A stretch of DNA of 64,000 bases, from contig CACOWV010000003.1 in the NCBI GenBank assembly GCA_902630945.1, positions 1 to 64,000 on the forward strand. Direction: 5' to 3'. Below the pieces are notes generated by a model. That model searched no databases. It saw only the letters and a program-made list of their open reading frames with translations, and was not told where the DNA came from. Below are positions 22,335 through 55,541 of the stretch, piece by piece. The translations under genes were made by a program, and so were the position numbers. Source of the DNA: an uncultured Pelagibacteraceae bacterium. Its GTDB lineage: Bacteria; Pseudomonadota; Alphaproteobacteria; Pelagibacterales; Pelagibacteraceae. Positions within the stretch are counted from its first letter, which is position 1, and every line of letters starts with the position of its first letter.

Positions 22335-23204
22335 ATGAAAAGATCTACAAAAATTATCTCAATAATACTGGTGTTTTTCATAATTATAGCAATCGTGATT
22401 ATTGGAAGAACAATGGTGGGAAATCATTTTAAAAAAAAATTTAGCAAAAGACCTCCTCCAGGAATAATTGTAACAGAGGTGATTAAAAAAGAATTTTCAG
22501 AAAAAATTGAAACTTTTGGGACAGCAATTTCAAAAAAATCAAAAACATTTAAAATAAAAAAAGATGATCTCGTTGAAGATCTTAAATTGAAAAATTTTGT
22601 TAAAAGTGGTGAAATCTTAATTAAATTGAAAAGTGGAAATATAATAGCTCCATTTAGTGGTGTGTTGGGATACACAGGTTTGACTGAAGATATCCTTGTG
22701 TCAAACAATATAGTCATTATTACGCTCGATGATAATTCTATTATTTATTCTGACATAAAGATTCCTGAAAATTACTCTGCATTTATTAAAAAGGGGCTGC
22801 CAGTAGAAGTAAAATTAACTAGCTATAAAGATAAAACATTTAAAGGTGAAGTAGACTTCGTTTCAAGTAGAATTAATGCAGATACAAGAAGTTTACTATC
22901 TAGAATAAAAATAGATAATCAAAATTTAGAGTTAATATCAGGATCATTGTTAGAAGTTGGGGTTAAATTTAATTTAAGAAATTCTTTAAGTGTGCCAGAT
23001 ACAAGTGTAATGATTGAGGGGGATAAGTCCTATGTTTATATAGTTGATGAAGAGAGTATTGCCAATAAAATTGAGATAAAAACAGGTTTAAGAACTGATA
23101 AAAGTATAGAAGTAATCTCTGGCTTAACCGAAGGCGATATTATTGTGGCTGAAGGGTTAAAAAAAGTTAGACCACTCGGAAAAATTAAACCAATTAATAA
23201 ATAA
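22335..23204 (+). CDS. RND efflux periplasmic adaptor (membrane fusion protein)
   Basis: A 289-residue adaptor with an N-terminal membrane anchor (IISIILVFFIIIAIVII). A lipoyl-like half-motif (LVEDLKLKNFVKSGEILIKL ... IIAPFSGVLGYTG) follows, then a beta-barrel and the terminal IEIKTGLRTDKSIEVISGLTEGD membrane-proximal domain. It links the inner-membrane pump to an outer-membrane channel. The pump gene begins directly after its stop codon. At under 300 residues it is short for the family; the alpha-helical hairpin appears reduced or absent. Confidence 0.9.
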   Translation: MKRSTKIISIILVFFIIIAIVIIGRTMVGNHFKKKFSKRPPPGIIVTEVIKKEFSEKIETFGTAISKKSKTFKIKKDDLVEDLKLKNFVKSGEILIKLKSGNIIAPFSGVLGYTGLTEDILVSNNIVIITLDDNSIIYSDIKIPENYSAFIKKGLPVEVKLTSYKDKTFKGEVDFVSSRINADTRSLLSRIKIDNQNLELISGSLLEVGVKFNLRNSLSVPDTSVMIEGDKSYVYIVDEESIANKIEIKTGLRTDKSIEVISGLTEGDIIVAEGLKKVRPLGKIKPINK

Positions 23205-24743
23205 ATGTTTATCACTGAATTAAGTATAAAAAGACCAACTGTATCTTGGGTCATGTCTCTAATTTTAATTGTTTTTGGTTTGTTTGTTTTTTGGAAATTG
23301 CCAGTTAGAGAATTACCAAACGGTATACAACCACCTGTAGTCCAGATACAAGTAGATTATAAATCTGCTGCAGCTTCAATTGTGGACCAAGAGGTAACCC
23401 AAGTTGTTGAGGATGTAATTGGCGGTGCTGAGGGCATAAAAAATATTGACTCTAAATCAGAAAATGGAAGAAGCACAATAAATGTTGAATTTGACACTAG
23501 TATAGATTTAGATAATGCTGCTAATGATATAAGAGAAAGAGTTGCAAGAGTAGTTGATAATTTACCTTCAGAGTCTGATCCTCCACAAATACTTAAAAGG
23601 GCAGCTGGTTTTACAACAACCATGTGGTTGTCTTTGTCATCATCAACGTGGAGTGACCTTGAGTTAGGAGACTATGCCGAAAGATATTTAGTTGATCAAT
23701 TCTCGAGTGTAAAAAATGTTGGAAGAATAAGAGTTGGTGGATTAAGAGAGTTGAGTATCAGAATATGGATAGATCCTATTAGACTTGCAGCTAATGATTT
23801 AACAATTAAGGAAGTTGAAAATGCAATACGTGGAGAAAATATAAGTCTTCCAGCTGGCACTCTAGAAGCAGACAATATTGATTTAACACTTAATTTAAAT
23901 AAATCCTATAATGATATTAATTCGATCAAACAGCTACCAATTAAAAAAACCGATAATAAAGTTATTTTATTATCTGATGTTGCAAACATAGAATTTGGTC
24001 CGGTTTCAGAAAAAACTCTTTTTAAAGCTCAAACTAAAGATCAAATTAATTTAAAAACTGTTGGAATTGGTATTTATGCTAGAAGTGGTGCCTCGACAGT
24101 TGAGCTTTCAAAAGATATTGAAAAAAAAATTATTCAAGTTAAAAAATCGTTGCCAGAAGAGTTAGATTTAAGGGTCTCTTTCAACAGAGCAAATTATGTG
24201 GAGGCTGCTATTGAAGAGGTATATAAAACTTTATTAATAGCTTTTGTTTTGGTCGTTTTAATAATTTATCTATTTCTGGGTAATTTAAAGGCTGTAGTAG
24301 TACCTGCCATAGCGCTGCCTGTGAGCCTTATAGCATCTTTTTTAGGTCTATATCTATTTGGATTATCAATAAATATTTTTGTCCTTTTAAGCTTTATTTT
24401 AGCTATAGGAATAATAACAGATGACTCTGTAATAATGACAGATGCAATATATAGAAGAATAGAAAACGGTGAAAATCCATTGGTAGCTGCTTACAAGGGC
24501 TCTAAACAAATTTCTTTTGCAATTGTAGCTACCACATTAATTCTAGTTGCAGTTTTTTTACCATTGATTTTTATCGAGGGAATTTCTGGAACTTTATTTC
24601 GAGAAACAGCAATTGCTTTGTCTTTTTCAATAGTTGTGTCTTCTTTTGTAGCATTAACATTGTCACCAATGCTTGCAAGTAAATTTTTATATAAAAAAAA
24701 TCAAAAAAAGTTTTTATACAAAGATTTGAAAAATTTTTTTTAG
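23205..24743 (+). CDS. RND efflux pump, N-terminal half (frameshifted)
   Basis: The first 512 residues of an AcrB/MexB-type pump, which exports small molecules using the proton gradient. It contains TM1 (TVSWVMSLILIVFGLFVFWKLPVRELP), the porter domain (VTQVVEDVIGGAEGIKNIDS) and TM2-TM6. Membrane helix 4 has the paired acidic residues of proton relay in GIITDDSVIMTD. The frame hits TAG inside a T8 run, and the rest continues in the -1 frame. Joined, the two parts give 1042 residues, the normal family length. No outer-membrane channel gene is nearby. Confidence 0.9.
   Translation: MFITELSIKRPTVSWVMSLILIVFGLFVFWKLPVRELPNGIQPPVVQIQVDYKSAAASIVDQEVTQVVEDVIGGAEGIKNIDSKSENGRSTINVEFDTSIDLDNAANDIRERVARVVDNLPSESDPPQILKRAAGFTTTMWLSLSSSTWSDLELGDYAERYLVDQFSSVKNVGRIRVGGLRELSIRIWIDPIRLAANDLTIKEVENAIRGENISLPAGTLEADNIDLTLNLNKSYNDINSIKQLPIKKTDNKVILLSDVANIEFGPVSEKTLFKAQTKDQINLKTVGIGIYARSGASTVELSKDIEKKIIQVKKSLPEELDLRVSFNRANYVEAAIEEVYKTLLIAFVLVVLIIYLFLGNLKAVVVPAIALPVSLIASFLGLYLFGLSINIFVLLSFILAIGIITDDSVIMTDAIYRRIENGENPLVAAYKGSKQISFAIVATTLILVAVFLPLIFIEGISGTLFRETAIALSFSIVVSSFVALTLSPMLASKFLYKKNQKKFLYKDLKNFF
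24734..24741 (+). other. T8 run at the RND pump frameshift
   Basis: Eight consecutive T bases end in the TAG stop of the N-terminal frame. Reading TTT TTT and slipping back one base gives TTA GGT and restores the conserved pump frame immediately. The site could be a homopolymer sequencing error, a one-base deletion, or a slippage site. Confidence 0.8.
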
Positions 24744-26332
24744 GTTTTGCAGATTTTTATAAAGAAACTTTAGATACAATTTTTAGAAAAACAAAAACTG
24801 TTAGTTTTTTTATAGTCTTAATAGTCATTTCATCAATATTATTATTTAATTTTTCCAAAAAAGAATTGTTGCCTATGGAAGATCGTGGGGCATATTTAAT
24901 CATTGGATTCACAGATGAAGGGACTTCCTTCGAATATACGCAAAAACAAGCTCAAAAAGTAGAAGCCAGACTTCTTCCACTTCTCCAAGCTGAGAATAGT
25001 CCGTATTCAAGATTTATAATGAGGGTTCCTGGGTTTGGAAGTTCAGCTAATTCATATAATAGTTTTATAATAATTGCTTTATTAGATGATTGGAAAAATC
25101 GAAAAAAAGGGCAAGAAGTTGTTTTAAGAGAAGCGATAGGAAAAATAGTAACTTTACCTCAAGCAGTAGCCTTTCCTATTTCTCCTCAATCAATAAGAGT
25201 AAGTAATTACAATAAACCTGTGCAAATGGTCGTTTACGGAAGAACTTATGACGAGCTTGAAGAAATACAAAAAAAAGTAATTAGAGAACTAAGATCTAAT
25301 AAAAACCTATCTAGAATTGAGTCTGATTACAATCGAAATAAACCAGAGGTAAGATTAATAATTAATAAAAATAAAGCTAAAGATTTAGGTGTTTCTACAA
25401 AATCAATTGGAGAAACTCTTGAAACTCTTTATGGAGGAAAAAAAATTACAACTTTTAATAAATTAGGTAAAGAGTATCCTATAATTGTTCAACAATATTT
25501 ATCCGATAGAAGAAACAAAGAAGGTGTTTCTAAAATATTTGTTCGTTCAGAAACAAATGGAAAACTTATTTCCTTAGCAAATCTAGTTAGTTTTGAAGAA
25601 GAGGGTTCAGCAAAAGAACTCGCAAGGTATAACAGACAACCAGCAATAACAATATCGGCAAATATCAATGAAGGATACACTTTGACAGAAGCTATTAAGT
25701 ATTTTGAAGAGGTAATGGCTGATTTATCTCCTGAAAATCAAATTACATGGAAAGGAAAATCTCAGGAAATTAAAGAGACTAGTAACGAATTGTTAGTTAT
25801 TTTTGCACTAGCCTTACTTACAGCATATTTAGTTATGGCAGCAACATTCAATTCTTTCATTCATCCATTTATAATTATCCTCACAGTGCCCTTAGCAATT
25901 TTTGGTGGGCTAGTATTTATTTTATTTCTCAATAGCTCTGTAAACATTTTTTCTCAAATTGCTTTAATTATACTGATAGGTATTTCGACAAAAAATAGTA
26001 TTTTAATTGTAGATTACGCAAATCAAATTAGAACTACTGGAAAAAATATTGAAGCAGCAGTTAAAGAGGCTTGTGCAGTGAGATTTAGACCTATAATCAT
26101 GACTTCACTAAGTACAATGATTGCTATGCTCCCTTTAGTAATAGGAAATATTGGCCCAGGTGCTGGCGAAGGTTCTCGATTAGCAGTAGGATCAACTATC
26201 TTAGGAGGAATGATAATTTCAACTTTTTTTACTTTGTATGTTACTCCATCAATGTATCTAGCTTTAGCAAAAAATACTAAGCGAATTGACTCAGTAGACG
26301 TAGAGCTTAAAAATCAATTATCTAAAAAATAA
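24740..26332 (+). CDS. RND efflux pump, C-terminal half (frameshifted)
   Basis: The second part of the same pump, 530 residues, without its own credible start; the first ATG is at 24866 and lies inside conserved sequence. It begins LGFADFYKETLDTIFRKTK, continues through TM7 and ELLPMEDRGAYLI (porter PC1), and ends with TM8-TM12. GISTKNSILIVDYANQ contains the Lys equivalent to the proton-relay lysine of AcrB. No further stops or motif losses are seen, so decay, if any, is very recent. The last 11 bases overlap the convergent transglycosylase gene. Confidence 0.88.
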   Translation, partial: LGFADFYKETLDTIFRKTKTVSFFIVLIVISSILLFNFSKKELLPMEDRGAYLIIGFTDEGTSFEYTQKQAQKVEARLLPLLQAENSPYSRFIMRVPGFGSSANSYNSFIIIALLDDWKNRKKGQEVVLREAIGKIVTLPQAVAFPISPQSIRVSNYNKPVQMVVYGRTYDELEEIQKKVIRELRSNKNLSRIESDYNRNKPEVRLIINKNKAKDLGVSTKSIGETLETLYGGKKITTFNKLGKEYPIIVQQYLSDRRNKEGVSKIFVRSETNGKLISLANLVSFEEEGSAKELARYNRQPAITISANINEGYTLTEAIKYFEEVMADLSPENQITWKGKSQEIKETSNELLVIFALALLTAYLVMAATFNSFIHPFIIILTVPLAIFGGLVFILFLNSSVNIFSQIALIILIGISTKNSILIVDYANQIRTTGKNIEAAVKEACAVRFRPIIMTSLSTMIAMLPLVIGNIGPGAGEGSRLAVGSTILGGMIISTFFTLYVTPSMYLALAKNTKRIDSVDVELKNQLSKK

Positions 26333-33736: not shown

Positions 33737-36511
33737 TTAATGAAGGGCTCCCCAATTATCTCCTATATTTAAATCAACAGTTAAAGGTATGGAAAATGAA
33801 TGTTGATTGCTCTTAGCTACGCTTGACATACTGTCAATTATCATTTTACTGATTCTTTTAACTTCATCTTTAGGGGTTTCAAAAATTAGTTCGTCATGAA
33901 TTTGTAATAACATCTTAGTATTGTAGTTTTTTTTATTATTTAATTCTTTTTCTAGTTTAATCATAGCTAATCTCATAATTTCAGCAGCAGATCCCTGTAT
34001 TGGTGCATTAATGGCTGCTCTTTCTTGAAAATTTCTGACATTATAATTCTTGTCATTAATATTAAGAAAATGTGATCTTCTACCAAAAATATTATTTACA
34101 AATCCACTTTTTCTACAAAATTTAATTGTCCGATCCATATAAACTTTGATTTCTGGAAATTTAGCAAAATATGAATTTAAGAATTCTTCAGCCTCAAAAT
34201 TTGTTACATTTATTTGTTTTGCTAAACCATATTGGGATATTCCATATATAATTCCAAAATTTATAGCTTTAGCTTTTCTTCTTTGATCTTGATTAACTTT
34301 TTTTATGTCAATATTAAATATTTGACTAGCAGTAAGTGAATGAATATCTTCATTATTTTTGAATGCTTTTTTCAATTCTTTAACATCTGCTAAATCTGCT
34401 AAGATTCTCATTTCAATTTGATTATAATCAGCAGAAATTAAGACATTATTTTTTTCAGCAATAAATGCTTTTCTTATATCCTTTCCATCTTCTGATTTAA
34501 TTGGAATATTTTGTAAATTTGGGTCACTGGATGCTAATCTTCCTGTTGTAGTAGCTGCCAGTAGAAAAGATGTGTGCACTCTTTTTGAATTTGGATTTAT
34601 ATGTTCTGGTAAAGAGTCTGAATAAGTATTCTTTAACTTAGAAACTTGTCTCCAATCCAAAACTAATTGTGGAAATTTATGACCTTTAAAAGCAAGATCT
34701 TCTAAAACTGATGCACTTGTTGCAAAACCTCCTTTTTTAGTTTTTTTTAGGTTAGCAATTTTAAGATCATTGTATAGAATTTCTCCAAGTTGTTTTGGTG
34801 AAGCGATATTAAATTCTTTTTGAGATATTTTAAAAACCTCTTTTTGAATTTTATCAATTTTTTTTTCAAATTTGGATGACAAGGATTTAAGAGATTTACT
34901 GTCAATTTTAATTCCTTGAATTTCCATATGAGCTAAAATTCTAATCATTGGTTTTTCGAAAACCTCGTAAATATTAATCATCTTTTCATCTTTTAAACTT
35001 TTAAAAAATTTTTTATATAATCTTAAAGTTATGTCTGCATCTTCAGCTGCATAGTCTTTTGCTTTTTCAACATCTACATCACTGAAGTTTATTTCTTTTT
35101 TTCCAGATCCAACCAAATCTTTAAAAGTAATTGTTTTATGATTTAAATGTATTTCAGATAATGTATCCATGTTATGTCTATTTTTTCCTGCGTCTAACAC
35201 ATAGGACATAAGCATCGTATCTTCCATTGATGAAACATCAATTCCATTTTTAAATAACACGATATAGTCAAATTTTATATTTTGACCAATTTTTTTAATA
35301 CTAGGATCTTCAAACAAAGGTTTTAATTTTTTTAAAACTATTTCTTTTTTAATACATTTTTTCGATTTATGGCCAATTGGTATATAACAGGCTTTGCCTA
35401 TTTTGGTGCTTAAAGAAATACCAATTAAATCCGCTTGATGAGGATCAAGGGAACTTGTTTCTGTGTCTATAGCAATCTCACCTATCTCCTCAGCTTCTTT
35501 TATCCAGGCATCTAATTCCTTAGGTTCATCAATTAAATAATATTTACTATTATCTATTTTTTCTTGAGTTAAATTATTTTTAACTTCAGTCTTTATGTTG
35601 CTTAAAGCAGGCTCTCCGTAGGCAGATATGGCTGAGCTCAAGAGTCTATTGAACTCCATTTCTCTTAAAAACTTATATAGTTTATCTTTATCGATGTCTT
35701 TTAATTTTAATTCATCTAGATCTTTTTCTACAGGCGCGTCATGTTTCAAGGTTACTAATTTTTTGCTTATTAAAGCTTTATCTTTATTTTCTATCAAAGT
35801 TTCTCTTCTTTTATTTTGTTTAATTTCATGTGCTGATTTTAAAAGCGTTTCTAAATTACCATATTTGTTTATGAGTTCTGCTGCAGTTTTGACGCCAATA
35901 CCAGGCACTCCTGGAACGTTATCGCTACTATCTCCTGCAAGTGATTGAACATCAATTACTTTGCTTGAACCAACTCCAAATTTTTTATGAACATCCTCTT
36001 CACTTATAAATTTATTTTTCATTGGATCAAAAATTCTCACATCTTTTTTATATAATTGCATCAGATCCTTATCAGATGAAACTATTGTGACTTTTGCTCC
36101 TTGTTTAAGAATTTTATCAACATATGTAGCTATCAAGTCATCTGCTTCATAGTTCACTAGTTCAATAGATGGTAAGTTAAATGCTAAAACAGACTTTCGT
36201 ATATATTCAAACTGTGGAGCTAAATCATCTGGAGCTTCGGCTCGATTAGCTTTGTAATCACTATAAATTTCGTTTCGAAATGTTTTTCTTGCAGAGTCAA
36301 AAATGACAGCAAAATGAGTTGGTTTCTGCAAATTTTGATTTGATTTAGAATCCTCTAAAAGTTTAAAAAGCATACTGCAAAAGCCACTTACTGCACCAGT
36401 TGGTAGCCCATCACTTTTTCGAGTAAGAGGTGGTAAAGCATAATAAGCTCTGAATATGTAACCAGATCCATCGATGAGATAAAAATGATCTGATTTTTGA
36501 ATTTTTGCCAT
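33737..36511 (-). CDS. polA: DNA polymerase I
   Basis: Fills gaps and removes RNA primers during replication and repair. All three domains are intact in 924 residues. The 5'-3' exonuclease starts YLIDGSGYIFRAYYALPPLT and has GDSSDNVPGVPGIGVKTA. The proofreading exonuclease has DTETSSLDP, NIKFDY and YAAEDADIT. The polymerase has DYNQIEMRILADL (motif A), RRKAKAINFGIIYG (B) and QIHDELIFE (C). The start at 36511 is divergent from bioY. Confidence 0.98.
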   Translation of the reverse strand: MAKIQKSDHFYLIDGSGYIFRAYYALPPLTRKSDGLPTGAVSGFCSMLFKLLEDSKSNQNLQKPTHFAVIFDSARKTFRNEIYSDYKANRAEAPDDLAPQFEYIRKSVLAFNLPSIELVNYEADDLIATYVDKILKQGAKVTIVSSDKDLMQLYKKDVRIFDPMKNKFISEEDVHKKFGVGSSKVIDVQSLAGDSSDNVPGVPGIGVKTAAELINKYGNLETLLKSAHEIKQNKRRETLIENKDKALISKKLVTLKHDAPVEKDLDELKLKDIDKDKLYKFLREMEFNRLLSSAISAYGEPALSNIKTEVKNNLTQEKIDNSKYYLIDEPKELDAWIKEAEEIGEIAIDTETSSLDPHQADLIGISLSTKIGKACYIPIGHKSKKCIKKEIVLKKLKPLFEDPSIKKIGQNIKFDYIVLFKNGIDVSSMEDTMLMSYVLDAGKNRHNMDTLSEIHLNHKTITFKDLVGSGKKEINFSDVDVEKAKDYAAEDADITLRLYKKFFKSLKDEKMINIYEVFEKPMIRILAHMEIQGIKIDSKSLKSLSSKFEKKIDKIQKEVFKISQKEFNIASPKQLGEILYNDLKIANLKKTKKGGFATSASVLEDLAFKGHKFPQLVLDWRQVSKLKNTYSDSLPEHINPNSKRVHTSFLLAATTTGRLASSDPNLQNIPIKSEDGKDIRKAFIAEKNNVLISADYNQIEMRILADLADVKELKKAFKNNEDIHSLTASQIFNIDIKKVNQDQRRKAKAINFGIIYGISQYGLAKQINVTNFEAEEFLNSYFAKFPEIKVYMDRTIKFCRKSGFVNNIFGRRSHFLNINDKNYNVRNFQERAAINAPIQGSAAEIMRLAMIKLEKELNNKKNYNTKMLLQIHDELIFETPKDEVKRISKMIIDSMSSVAKSNQHSFSIPLTVDLNIGDNWGALH

Positions 36512-37811: not shown

Positions 37812-38996
37812 ATGCAAAAATTTAAGTCAGTTGAAGATTTAGTAAATCAACTGAAACCAGATAAACCGGTATACTGTATCAGAAAGAATTCAATTCTTTC
37901 TGCATCAAATTTTTTTCAAAAAAAATTCCCTGGCAAAATTTTATTTGCGGTAAAAACAAATCCACATCCTGAAGTAATAAAAACACTTATTAAAAGTGGA
38001 ATTAGTCAATTCGATGTTGCTTCTATTGAAGAGGTAAAAGCAGTAAGAAAATTTAGTCTTACAGCTAAATGCTCATTTATGCATACTGTTAAAAGTAGGG
38101 AAAGTATAAGTGAAGCATACTTTAAATATGGAATTAAAACTTTTGCTGTAGACACAAAAGACGAACTTATCAAGATTATTGAAAGCACTAGTAATGCAAA
38201 AGATCTTGAGCTTTTTGTAAGAGTTGCAGTATCAAATTAACATGCTGAAATCGATTTATCAAAAAAATTTGGAGCTTTAAATTCTGAAGCAGTAGGACTT
38301 TTAAGGCTTGTAAAACAACAGTCTAAAAAAATTGGTTTAAGTTTCCATGTTGGATCACAGTGTATGCATCCAATTTCCTATGCGAAAGGTATATCTGAAA
38401 TTGGAAATATAATTAAAAAAACAAAAATTGTTCCTAATTATATTAATGTAGGTGGTGGGTTTCCAACTATTTATCCTGATTTAGTTCCAAAGCCATTAGA
38501 TAGTTATTTTGATGAAATTAAAAAAAGTTTAGAAAATTTAAAAATCGATACTTTACCCGAAATAATTTGTGAGCCTGGAAGAGCACTTGTAGCAGAAAGT
38601 GGATCAACAATTGTTAGAGTAAATTTAAGAAAAAAACAAAAACTTTATATTAATGATGGAACTTATGGAACACTTTTTGACGCTGGAACTCCAAATATTG
38701 TATTTCCATCTAAAATGATTAAAGATAGTTCAAATAAGATTATTTCGAAAAAATTAACAGCTTTTGATTTTTATGGCCCTACATGCGATAGCATGGATTA
38801 TATGAAGGGCCCTTTTCTTCTTCCAAACAACATTAAAGAAAATGATTATATTGAGCTTGGTCAATTAGGTTCGTACGGATTAACATTTAGAACGCAATTT
38901 AATGGTTTTTATTCAGATGAGATATACGAAGTAGATGATAAACCGATTATGAGCCTTTATGGCAAAGATTTAAATAAAGCTACTTTGGTGGCTTAA
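37812..38996 (+). pseudogene. Ornithine/lysine decarboxylase (type III PLP) with in-frame stop
   Basis: A group IV, alanine-racemase-fold decarboxylase that would make putrescine (or cadaverine). FAVKTNPHPEV holds the PLP lysine and SQFDVASIEEV follows. Downstream are LSFHVGSQ, CEPGRALVAESG and FYGPTCDSMD with the catalytic Cys. A single TAA at 38238-38240 interrupts the frame after RVAVSN. The same frame resumes at once with HAEIDLSKKFGA and stays open and fully conserved. Total length is 393 sense codons plus the stop, normal for the family. It is the first gene of a polyamine operon; the next gene overlaps its stop by one base. Confidence 0.88.
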
Positions 38997-40039
38997 TGGC
39001 AGATAAAAAAAACTTAGGCCACAACAGCAAAAAAGATTTTCTAAAAAATCCAGTTGAGCATATAGATATCACTTCGTTCGACTCTAGAAAAATTATTTCA
39101 CAAATGAAAAAAATGTCTTTTGTTTCGAGAGAAACTGCTAATGCTGCAAATATTTACAATGAAATGTTAAAAGATAAAGACTGTACAATTTTTTTAACTT
39201 TGGCTGGTTCTACGTCAGCAGCCGGTTGTATGAACATATACAAAGATATGGTTAAATATAATATGGTCGATGCGATAGTTGCAACTGGAGCTTCAATAAT
39301 TGACATGGATTTTTTTGAGGCTCTTGGCTTTAAACATTATCAAGGATCTCAATTTCAAGATGATGCGGAATTAAGAAAAAATTATATAGATAGAATTTAT
39401 GATACTTATATTGATGAAGACGAATTACAAATATGTGATAAAAAAATATGTGAAATAGCTGATAATTTAGAAGCAAGAAGCTATACCTCAAGAGAATTTA
39501 TTTATGAAATTGGCAAATATTTAAAAAAAAATTCTGTTAAAAAAGATTCTTTAATTGAAACTGCTTATGATAACAATGTTCCAATCTTCTGTCCTGCTTT
39601 TACAGATTCTAGTGCAGGGTTTGGTTTAGTTATCCATCAAGAAAAAAATCCTTCAAAACACTTAACTATAGACTCAATAAGAGAATTCAGAGAATTAACT
39701 GAGATAAAAATTAAATCTAAAGGATCAGGTTTATTTATGATCGGTGGAGGTGTGCCAAAAAATTTTATTCAGGATACCGTAATATGTGCTGAACTTTTAG
39801 GTAAAGAAGTTGATATGCACAAATATGCAGTTCAAATTACTGTAGCAGACTCAAGAGATGGGGCATGTAGTAGCTCAACTTTAAAAGAAGCAAGTTCATG
39901 GGGTAAAGTTGATTTATCTCAAGAACAAATGGTTTATGCAGAGGCTACGAGTGTGCTACCATTAATTGCAAGTGATGCCTATCATAGAGGTGAATGGAAA
40001 AATAGAAGTAAAAAAAACTTCTCAAAAATTTTTGGATAA
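38996..40039 (+). CDS. Deoxyhypusine-synthase-like enzyme
   Basis: A 347-residue NAD-dependent enzyme of the deoxyhypusine synthase family. TIFLTLAGSTSAAG and MVDAIVATGASI are family segments. PIFCPAFTDSSAGFGL and the catalytic lysine region ASSWGKVDLSQEQMVYAEATSVLPLI match the human enzyme's SWGK motif. Bacteria lack eIF5A, so the natural reaction is probably aminobutyl transfer onto a small amine, such as homospermidine formation. Its place between ornithine decarboxylase and a ureohydrolase supports polyamine synthesis. The exact product is not known. Confidence 0.88.
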   Translation: MADKKNLGHNSKKDFLKNPVEHIDITSFDSRKIISQMKKMSFVSRETANAANIYNEMLKDKDCTIFLTLAGSTSAAGCMNIYKDMVKYNMVDAIVATGASIIDMDFFEALGFKHYQGSQFQDDAELRKNYIDRIYDTYIDEDELQICDKKICEIADNLEARSYTSREFIYEIGKYLKKNSVKKDSLIETAYDNNVPIFCPAFTDSSAGFGLVIHQEKNPSKHLTIDSIREFRELTEIKIKSKGSGLFMIGGGVPKNFIQDTVICAELLGKEVDMHKYAVQITVADSRDGACSSSTLKEASSWGKVDLSQEQMVYAEATSVLPLIASDAYHRGEWKNRSKKNFSKIFG

Positions 40040-40043
40040 AAAA

Positions 40044-40919
40044 TTGCAATATTTATCAAATAAAAATGGATTTCTTGGAATTAATAATAAATCCAATTTT
40101 AAAGAAAAGGTTATTATAATTCCGTTTGGTCTAGAAAAAACAGTTAGTTACGGCAAAGGTACTAGAAATGGGCCAAGGGAAATAATTAAAGCTTCTCATC
40201 AAGTGGAGCTTTATGATGAAGAATTAAATTGTGAACCATACAAAAAAATTGGAATAAAAACATTAAAGCCTTTTAAAATTCATAGAAATATTGATAAGGC
40301 TCTTGATAAAATAGCAAATTTAAATAAAGAAATTTTAGATAAAAAAATTTTTCCAATGACATTTGGTGGAGAACATTCAATAACTCCAGGATGTATTAAA
40401 CCATTTACAAAAAAATTTAAAAAAATTTGTATTTTACATTTTGATGCTCATGCAGATTTAAGAAATAGCTACAATGGTGAAAGATTTTCACATGCATCTG
40501 CTATTAGAAGATGTTTGGATTACAAAAATGTGTCTTTAATTTCTTTTGGAATAAGAAATATCTCTGAAAGTGAGATACCTTTTTTAAAAAAAAACAAATC
40601 TAGAATAAATATTTTTTGGGCTAAAGATAAAAAAAACTGGAATTTAAATAAGTTTAAAAAACTTATCATGAATAAGACAGTTTATTTAACTTTTGATGTA
40701 GATGGTTTAGATTCAAGTATTATGCCTGCTACTGGCACTCCTGAACCTGGTGGATTATTATGGGATGAAGCTTTGGAAATTATTAAAATGACAGCCAAAA
40801 ATTCAAATATTGTTGGTGCCGATATCAATGAACTTTCACCGATTAAGGGTTTTAATTCTTATAACTTTTTAGTCGCAAAATTGGCCTATAAAATTTTAGC
40901 CTATAAATTTTTTTACTAA
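40044..40919 (+). CDS. speB: Agmatinase/arginase-family ureohydrolase
   Basis: A manganese ureohydrolase with FGGEHSI, LHFDAHADLR, SHASAIRR and TFDVDGLDSSIMPATGTPEPGG, so all metal ligands are present. The family hydrolyses agmatine, arginine or related guanidino compounds. I placed the start at the TTG at 40044, giving 291 residues, because earlier starts (39966 TTG, 39975 ATG) would lie deep inside the preceding gene. In the operon it may act on agmatine or on a guanidino-polyamine made by the preceding enzyme. Confidence 0.85.
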   Translation: MQYLSNKNGFLGINNKSNFKEKVIIIPFGLEKTVSYGKGTRNGPREIIKASHQVELYDEELNCEPYKKIGIKTLKPFKIHRNIDKALDKIANLNKEILDKKIFPMTFGGEHSITPGCIKPFTKKFKKICILHFDAHADLRNSYNGERFSHASAIRRCLDYKNVSLISFGIRNISESEIPFLKKNKSRINIFWAKDKKNWNLNKFKKLIMNKTVYLTFDVDGLDSSIMPATGTPEPGGLLWDEALEIIKMTAKNSNIVGADINELSPIKGFNSYNFLVAKLAYKILAYKFFY

Positions 40920-54445: not shown

Positions 54446-55541
54446 TAACTCAAAAATAATAATCGTTAAAATTGGATCATCCTTACTTGTTGATAAAGAT
54501 AAAAAAGTAAGAAAAAAATGGTTGTTAAGCTTTGCAAAAGACATAAGAAATCTTAAAGATAAAAATAAAAAAGTTGTGATTGTGAGCTCAGGGTCTATAG
54601 CACTTGGCTGTAAAAAAATGGGCTATAATAAATCAAATCTAAAGTTAGATCAAAGTCAAGCAATAGCGTCTATTGGACAAATAGAGTTAATGAATTTATT
54701 TTCACAAACATTTTCAAAATATAAATTAAACATTTCTCAAATTTTATTAACTTTGGAAGATACAGAAGAAAGAAGAAGATCGATAAATGCAAAAAGAACT
54801 TTTGAAAATTTATTTAAGCTTAACTATATACCCATAGTTAACGAAAACGATACTATTGCTACATCTGAAATAAAATATGGTGATAACGACAGATTAGCTT
54901 CTAGAGTTGCACAAATTACTAATGCAGATACTTTAATCCTACTATCTGATGTAGACGGTTTATTCACCAAAAATCCAAAAAAATTTAAAGATGCAAGATT
55001 AATAAAGCAAGTTAATAACTTAAATAAAGACATAAGAAAAATCAAGATTGGAGGAACAAATCAGTTTGGTAGTGGTGGGATGAATACGAAAATTGAAGCT
55101 GCAAAAATTTGTAATTTAGCTGGATGCAACATGATAATATCAAATGGATTATATCTTAATCCAATTAATCAAATTGAGAAAAAAAATAATTGTACTTTGT
55201 TTATTTCAAAAATTTCAAAATTACATGCAAGAAAAAAATGGATTATCAGCTCTATTTCACCAAAGGGTGAATTAACTATTGATGATGGAGCGAAAAGAGC
55301 TCTAATAAATGGAAAAAGTCTACTGGCAGCGGGTATAAAAAAAGTTTCGGGAAAATTTAACAAGGGAGATCATATAAAAATTTTAGATTGTAAAAAAAAA
55401 GAATTTGCCAGAGGACTTAGCTCCTTTTCCTCTCAGGAGATAGGTAAAATTATGGGCTGCCAATCAAATGAAATTCAAAAAATTCTTGGATATGTCTCAA
55501 AATCTGAGGTAGTACACAAAGATGATATGGTGGAAGTGTAA
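54435..55541 (+). CDS. proB: Glutamate 5-kinase
   Basis: First enzyme of proline synthesis, phosphorylating glutamate. The amino-acid-kinase domain has VKIGSSLLVDK, VSSGSIALG, PIVNENDTIA and GTNQFGSGGMNTKI. A C-terminal PUA domain (GELTIDDGAKRAL ... SLLAAGIKKV) brings the total to 368 residues, the normal size. The stop overlaps the proA start by one base. Confidence 0.96.
   Translation: MQLSNSKIIIVKIGSSLLVDKDKKVRKKWLLSFAKDIRNLKDKNKKVVIVSSGSIALGCKKMGYNKSNLKLDQSQAIASIGQIELMNLFSQTFSKYKLNISQILLTLEDTEERRRSINAKRTFENLFKLNYIPIVNENDTIATSEIKYGDNDRLASRVAQITNADTLILLSDVDGLFTKNPKKFKDARLIKQVNNLNKDIRKIKIGGTNQFGSGGMNTKIEAAKICNLAGCNMIISNGLYLNPINQIEKKNNCTLFISKISKLHARKKWIISSISPKGELTIDDGAKRALINGKSLLAAGIKKVSGKFNKGDHIKILDCKKKEFARGLSSFSSQEIGKIMGCQSNEIQKILGYVSKSEVVHKDDMVEV

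Follow-up and report, generated by a model that had tools for sequence, protein, structure and literature searches.

A gene for an AR-fold PLP decarboxylase, probably acting on arginine, is interrupted by one in-frame TAA at codon 143 in the window, by which we mean the whole 64,000-nucleotide stretch analysed here (contig CACOWV010000003.1 of assembly GCA_902630945.1, from an uncultured Pelagibacteraceae bacterium). The stop is genuinely present in the sequence as given, and we consider it probable that it is a single-base error of the assembly. It most likely does not represent a new biological device: an error is the most likely cause, or else the gene is a very young broken copy. The gene and the positions within it are as follows.

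37812..38996, + strand: AR-fold PLP decarboxylase gene, 394 codons plus stop, interrupted at codon 143
37953..37955, + strand: codon of the presumed PLP lysine K48 (AVKTN), 5' of the stop
38238..38240, + strand: in-frame TAA replacing a Glu codon, read in relatives as GAA or GAG
38364..38996, + strand: leftover C-terminal ORF of 210 aa, starting at an internal ATG and without the PLP lysine
38784..38786, + strand: codon of the presumed catalytic cysteine C325 (GPTCDSMD), 3' of the stop

Translation of 37812-38996 runs from ATG to TAA and is open apart from the single TAA at residue 143 of 394. Residues 1-142 match Orn_Arg_deC_N (3e-15), and residues 144-394 match the remainder of this domain (7.9e-16) as well as Orn_DAP_Arg_deC (4.6e-07); both Pfam domains expected of an AR-fold PLP decarboxylase thus pass their cut-off, one on each side of the stop. 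Furthermore, the entire reading is 92-93% identical to the intact single ORFs of its closest relatives, which excludes a chance pair of ORFs. By position, AVKTN (K48) precedes the stop, and FHVGSQ (178), CEPGR (253) and GPTCDSMD (C325) come after it. We take K48, C325, FHVGSQ and CEPGR to be functional sites of the decarboxylase, and since such residues are split between both sides of the stop, neither half could hold a full active site. The earlier note had described one TAA at 38238-38240 within a frame that is family-like on both sides, a description borne out by translation, Pfam and relatives alike. SAR11 genomes are known for their few pseudogenes.

The relatives are uniform at the interrupted codon. 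All 80 nearest named relatives have Glu at position 143 (GAA in 64, GAG in 16), preceded by VSN and followed by HAEID, and none of the 80 genes is interrupted by a stop; likewise, Glu is found in all 29 congener loci read (GAA in 23, GAG in 6), a set that is not independent of the former as the two share contigs (e.g. L004, L034). Judged from these codons, the original one was Glu, encoded by GAA or GAG, and from GAA a single G-to-T step would create the stop. The alignment to SAR11 orthologues proposed earlier therefore places Glu between the Asn and the His, and of the one-base origins suggested for the TAA, namely CAA, GAA and AAA, the second agrees with the relatives and the other two do not.

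A full-length search of 399 genomes of the genus, including that of the window (G000), recovered the decarboxylase in 316, each of which, G000 among them, was inspected for stops; 14 of these matches (G101, G146 and G261 among them) are partial, mostly at contig ends, and were judged in their matched part. An unshifted decarboxylase match with a stop occurs in G000 and in none of the others. One-base frameshifts occur in three of the 316 genomes (G159, G187 and G224, at loci L184, L182 and L186), each at a different place. The gene itself is nearly universal, being present in 54 of 57 congeners that are at least 90% complete. An exact 32-base search of viral contigs for the TAA form gave no match. 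Among the decarboxylase loci, two irregular joins were seen as well. At the start of G076:C3 (L009 / L180), the N-terminal side of the decarboxylase is fused to part of the gene for DNA polymerase I, which in the window lies upstream of the decarboxylase on the opposite strand; this fusion looks like an inverted amplification chimera. In L178 (G193:C10), the match lacks the first 76 codons in mid-contig, through either a join or a deletion.

With respect to its age, the stop has left no trace in the surrounding gene. Against the six nearest named relatives, dN/dS amounts to 0.03-0.06 for the whole gene and 0.03-0.07 for each half, with about 0.04 both before and after the stop, similar to pairs among the relatives themselves, which served as control. 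The copy departs at two residues, L113V and the stop, from columns invariant in the 80 others, and other genomes show 0-3 such departures. No second lesion was found within the gene. With dN/dS of about 0.04 on each side and no decay, the stop would be either very young or not real; as the nearest of the six relatives lies at a dS of 0.85, a mutation could be placed anywhere along a long terminal branch. An established pseudogene, or a split gene with two cooperating halves, is accordingly an exceedingly improbable explanation. The internal ATG at 38364 could begin a C-terminal protein of 210 residues, but this restart would lose residues 144-184 and with them the conserved stretches HAEIDLSKKFG and FHVGSQ, and no examined relative is divided at codon 143. 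Neither relaxed selection nor further lesions, by which a pseudogene would be recognised, appeared in the gene, and a long-standing pseudogene was rejected on account of the unchanged dN/dS.

Readthrough or recoding of the UAA, resulting in a full-length enzyme, is also very doubtful. The intact downstream frame and its purifying selection would agree with it, but both are equally expected under an error or a young mutation. Moreover, all relatives read have Glu at the site and no other unshifted stop occurs among the 316 genomes, and the conservation of the stop that would be expected for recoding was found in 0 of the 80 named relatives and 0 of the 29 partly overlapping congener loci. TAA also terminates 44 of the 64 genes of the window, none of these being halves of its two broken genes. 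No tRNA with a UUA anticodon was present among 23 tRNA matches in the 68.7% complete genome: ARAGORN gave the anticodon for 22 of them, the weak 23rd match shows GTG in its anticodon loop by eye, and the tRNA-Leu carrying anticodon TAA decodes UUA. The RNA structure 3' of the stop was not unusual (z -0.41). Readthrough was thus rejected on the basis of TAA usage, no suppressor tRNA among the 23 matches of this incomplete genome and no notable downstream structure, leaving the slightest of chances to a real UAA that is decoded at some frequency in this lineage and keeps arginine decarboxylase and, through stop-start coupling, the agmatine-coupling enzyme encoded next at a low, possibly regulated level.

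The explanation that we prefer, a base error, would require a G-to-T change at the first base of the GAA codon for Glu143, arising in a probable single-cell amplified genome, either because the DNA was damaged or miscopied early in whole-genome amplification or through base calling at low coverage; the living cell would most likely have had an intact decarboxylase. The isolate names of the 80 nearest named relatives (AG-, AH-, SAG-MED, SCGC AAA) follow the naming habit of SCGC and mark them as single-cell genomes, although 27 of their 80 titles start with 'MAG:'. From the resemblance to these relatives, we infer that the window genome (an assembly of 766,095 bases in 28 contigs, 68.73% complete) is a single-cell genome as well, and the base change would then be of in vitro origin.

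Such an event is in line with reported error rates. For the SCGC workflow, PMC11247762 and PMC8443664 report an error level of 5.0 mismatches and 3.0 indels per 100 kb. With 5.8% of random coding substitutions producing a stop, the predicted number of error nonsense codons is 0.0034 per decarboxylase copy, or about 1.1 in 316 copies versus the one seen; for the coding DNA of the window it is 0.16 and for the 766-kb assembly about 2. If the substitution rate is scaled by the indel ratio (0.66 vs 3.0), about 0.24 nonsense errors are expected per 316 genes versus one, which is still unremarkable, although a real mutation then gains weight.

An oxidative-damage signature was sought in the private amino-acid changes of 42 gene groups, in which the window genome was typed against five relatives. 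G>T accounts for 10 of the 249 single-base cases in the window genome, which is no excess over the relatives (6/169, 5/126, 4/127, 2/123 and 16/498, i.e. 1.6-4.0%). Private changes numbered 323 in the window genome, 149-207 in four relatives and 737 in the fifth, with branch lengths uncontrolled. Since there is no G>T excess, the case for an artefact is carried by the error-rate and rpoB evidence and not by the spectrum. Among the three origins considered in the earlier note, namely a fresh nonsense mutation, readthrough and a base error, the last is favoured, the first stays in play as a recent null allele, and readthrough is without support.

The window contains a second broken gene, in which the lesion is of a different kind.

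23205..26332, + strand: RND (AcrB-family) permease, 1042 codons, one base missing near 24690-24705, beside an A-run

The first frame of this permease ends at 24743, and the gene is intact in all five relatives compared (G064, G201, G150, G216 and G024). As a second private one-base lesion of the window, it speaks for an error. G201 has a private frameshift in another place, where an extra T in a T-run affects a 225-aa gene. On the other side of the balance, a further 120 kb of the window genome (about 96 kb of matched coding DNA) revealed no clear broken gene. In these stop scans, flags at ORF residues 5-31 were treated as over-extended starts (52746, 58784 and 58802 in the window), and the flag at 24771 was assigned to the same frameshift as that at 24741. 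Flags of G000:C1 at 34565-34718 were excluded because the ORF that holds them matches poorly (62%); one of these flags falls at residue 68. Also excluded were, in the relatives, those at 73730/73754 of G064 and 33303 of G024 (137-143-aa ORF), at 55116 of G024 (residues 25, 51), at 36263 of G024 (agmatinase residue 25), and at 22497 and 4913 of G065 (50-66% matches).

As a control for technical damage we used rpoB, which is indispensable to living cells. It was searched for in the same 399 genomes and matched in 297. The rpoB of the window genome is intact, and no internal stop was found among the 150 rpoB genes listed. However, at least 8 of the 297 genomes (G063, G215, G037, G221, G323, G025, G309 and G158) have rpoB broken in frame within one contig and on the same strand, always at runs of 6-10 A or T and with a net shift of +1, or of +2 in G323 through two breaks. 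These come from the 19 genomes with two rpoB matches, which comprise 8 frame breaks, 9 cases on two contigs, 1 inverted join (G180) and 1 with two copies (G305); 128 single-match genomes beyond the 150 listed were left outside the stop and break counts. Because living cells need rpoB, the breaks must be technical, or repaired at expression. At least 8 breaks per about 1.2 Mb correspond to a rate of at least 0.66 per 100 kb, and the decarboxylase frameshifts, 3 per about 0.37 Mb, to about 0.80 per 100 kb. Frame breaks are thus roughly equally common in the two genes, by a control that gauges indels and not substitutions. In single-cell amplified genomes, errors likewise appear as small lesions breaking otherwise intact genes, even rpoB; those demonstrated in this analysis are indels at A or T runs, and the lesion of the decarboxylase differs from them in being a substitution.

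The break loci of rpoB (L203, L202, L209, L210, L204, L212, L200 and L214) are partly clustered, with three around codons 1153-1170 and another two at codon 440, and these clusters are likely technical hot spots. Transcriptional correction of slippage has been reported for A-rich endosymbionts, and, less likely, slippage at the rpoB runs could be corrected at transcription in a similar manner. Furthermore, rpoB occurs twice on the single contig G305:C3 (L199, L218), as equally good matches separated by 28 kb, probably because a stretch of the assembly is duplicated.

In this genus, whose nearest reference genomes are single-cell assemblies, an isolated stop or frameshift within a conserved gene is to be expected at the reported error rate, and caution is advisable: at least 8 of the 297 genomes have even rpoB seemingly broken inside a single contig. 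With regard to the decarboxylase gene itself, our finding matters little.

As to its substrate, the name ornithine decarboxylase, under which the gene had been introduced, is unsupported and was dropped, because two assayed SAR11 homologues were inactive on ornithine in PMC9992855. There, the 'ODC' of Ca. Pelagibacter ubique (WP_075506504, 394 aa) is presented as a PLP-dependent arginine decarboxylase without ornithine or lysine activity, and a Fonsibacter homologue decarboxylates arginine and likewise neither ornithine nor lysine (Table 2). The same paper describes clustering of the Pelagibacter gene with an arginase/agmatinase homologue, and the legend of the cluster figure names a deoxyhypusine-synthase homologue. 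The window gene agrees in its 394 codons and in the deoxyhypusine-synthase homologue and agmatinase-family gene downstream of it; both proteins come from SAR11, and the likeness to WP_075506504 is one of length, clade and neighbourhood and not of compared sequence. Unlike WP_075506504, the window copy has a stop at codon 143. By this analogy, the substrate is probably arginine and the gene an arginine decarboxylase.

Family models were less specific. In an NCBIfam scan of the full reading and of the intact relative L034, no equivalog of the fold scored above its curated cut-off: the best, lysA, reached 126.5 and 124.7 bits, respectively (cut-off 297.9), and speA 23.7 and 21.8 bits (cut-off 624.1). 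Neither arginine nor ornithine was hence assigned to the decarboxylase by any NCBIfam model above cut-off. Solved structural relatives include lysine/ornithine, ornithine, arginine and diaminopimelate decarboxylases. For instance, the lysine/ornithine decarboxylase 2plj, presumably from Vibrio, matches residues 43-367 (E 9.2e-36) and shares the AR-fold PLP decarboxylase class with the window gene, but is named for a different substrate and aligns a Ser with the position of Glu143.

Two genes follow the decarboxylase on the same strand.

38996..40039, + strand: deoxyhypusine-synthase homologue (NCBIfam NF002699, 1,9-bis(guanidino)-5-aza-nonane synthase, 577.7 bits, cut-off 500)
39966..40919, + strand: agmatinase-family ureohydrolase (TIGR01230, 210.9 bits, cut-off 174.3)

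The ureohydrolase probably starts further downstream than the listed TTG. The ATG of the deoxyhypusine-synthase homologue overlaps the decarboxylase's own stop (TAATG), an overlap kept in 80 of 80 relatives (TAATG in 69, TGATG in 11). In the proposed pathway, the decarboxylase would yield agmatine from arginine as step one of a conserved three-gene polyamine operon, ordered as decarboxylase, agmatine-coupling deoxyhypusine-synthase homologue and ureohydrolase.

This arrangement bears on the other way to read the stop, as a real and very recent nonsense mutation that created a null arginine decarboxylase allele, in a transient mutant or at an early stage of gene loss; we regard this as rather unlikely, yet worth serious consideration. 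It would take the sequence as given: a 142-residue fragment without much of the active site would be made, the translationally coupled downstream synthase would probably be under-expressed, the overlap kept in all 80 relatives suggesting that an early stop would affect the next gene, and the cell would live on imported polyamines. In support of import, PMC8437039 reports uptake of each of the five polyamines tested by two SAR11 strains. Apart from an intact lysA-like gene, no further member of the decarboxylase family was found in the genome (68.7% complete), so that no backup is seen. Nevertheless, there is neither a second hit nor relaxation within the gene, which is nearly universal among the more complete congeners, and a frameshift rate similar to that of rpoB does not point to null alleles segregating as a class. 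Were the stop real, it would offer a snapshot of a SAR11 cell that had lost its own agmatine route and become reliant on imported polyamines.

Under the preferred explanation of a base error, the intact operon would likely lead to polyamines by one of two routes. In the first, two agmatines would be coupled and urea removed to give homospermidine, as described for Thermus in PMC10981699. There, the caldomycin synthase CdmS of Thermus thermophilus couples agmatine before a ureohydrolase acts, analogous to the two downstream genes; CdmS is likened here by function and not by sequence comparison, and the assignment of the SAR11 gene comes from NCBIfam NF002699. In the second route, agmatine would likely be converted to putrescine and then to spermidine through a 346-aa protein in which S-adenosylmethionine decarboxylase is joined to spermidine synthase (SpeD-SpeE fusion), encoded on G000:C2 of the window genome (L176:787-1827, - strand); PMC8437039 notes a fused SpeE in SAR11. 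The deoxyhypusine-synthase homologue of SAR11 is labelled homospermidine synthase in PMC9992855, and low homospermidine production is reported in PMC8437039. Coupling of agmatine could reconcile the NCBIfam match with this label and with the low production.
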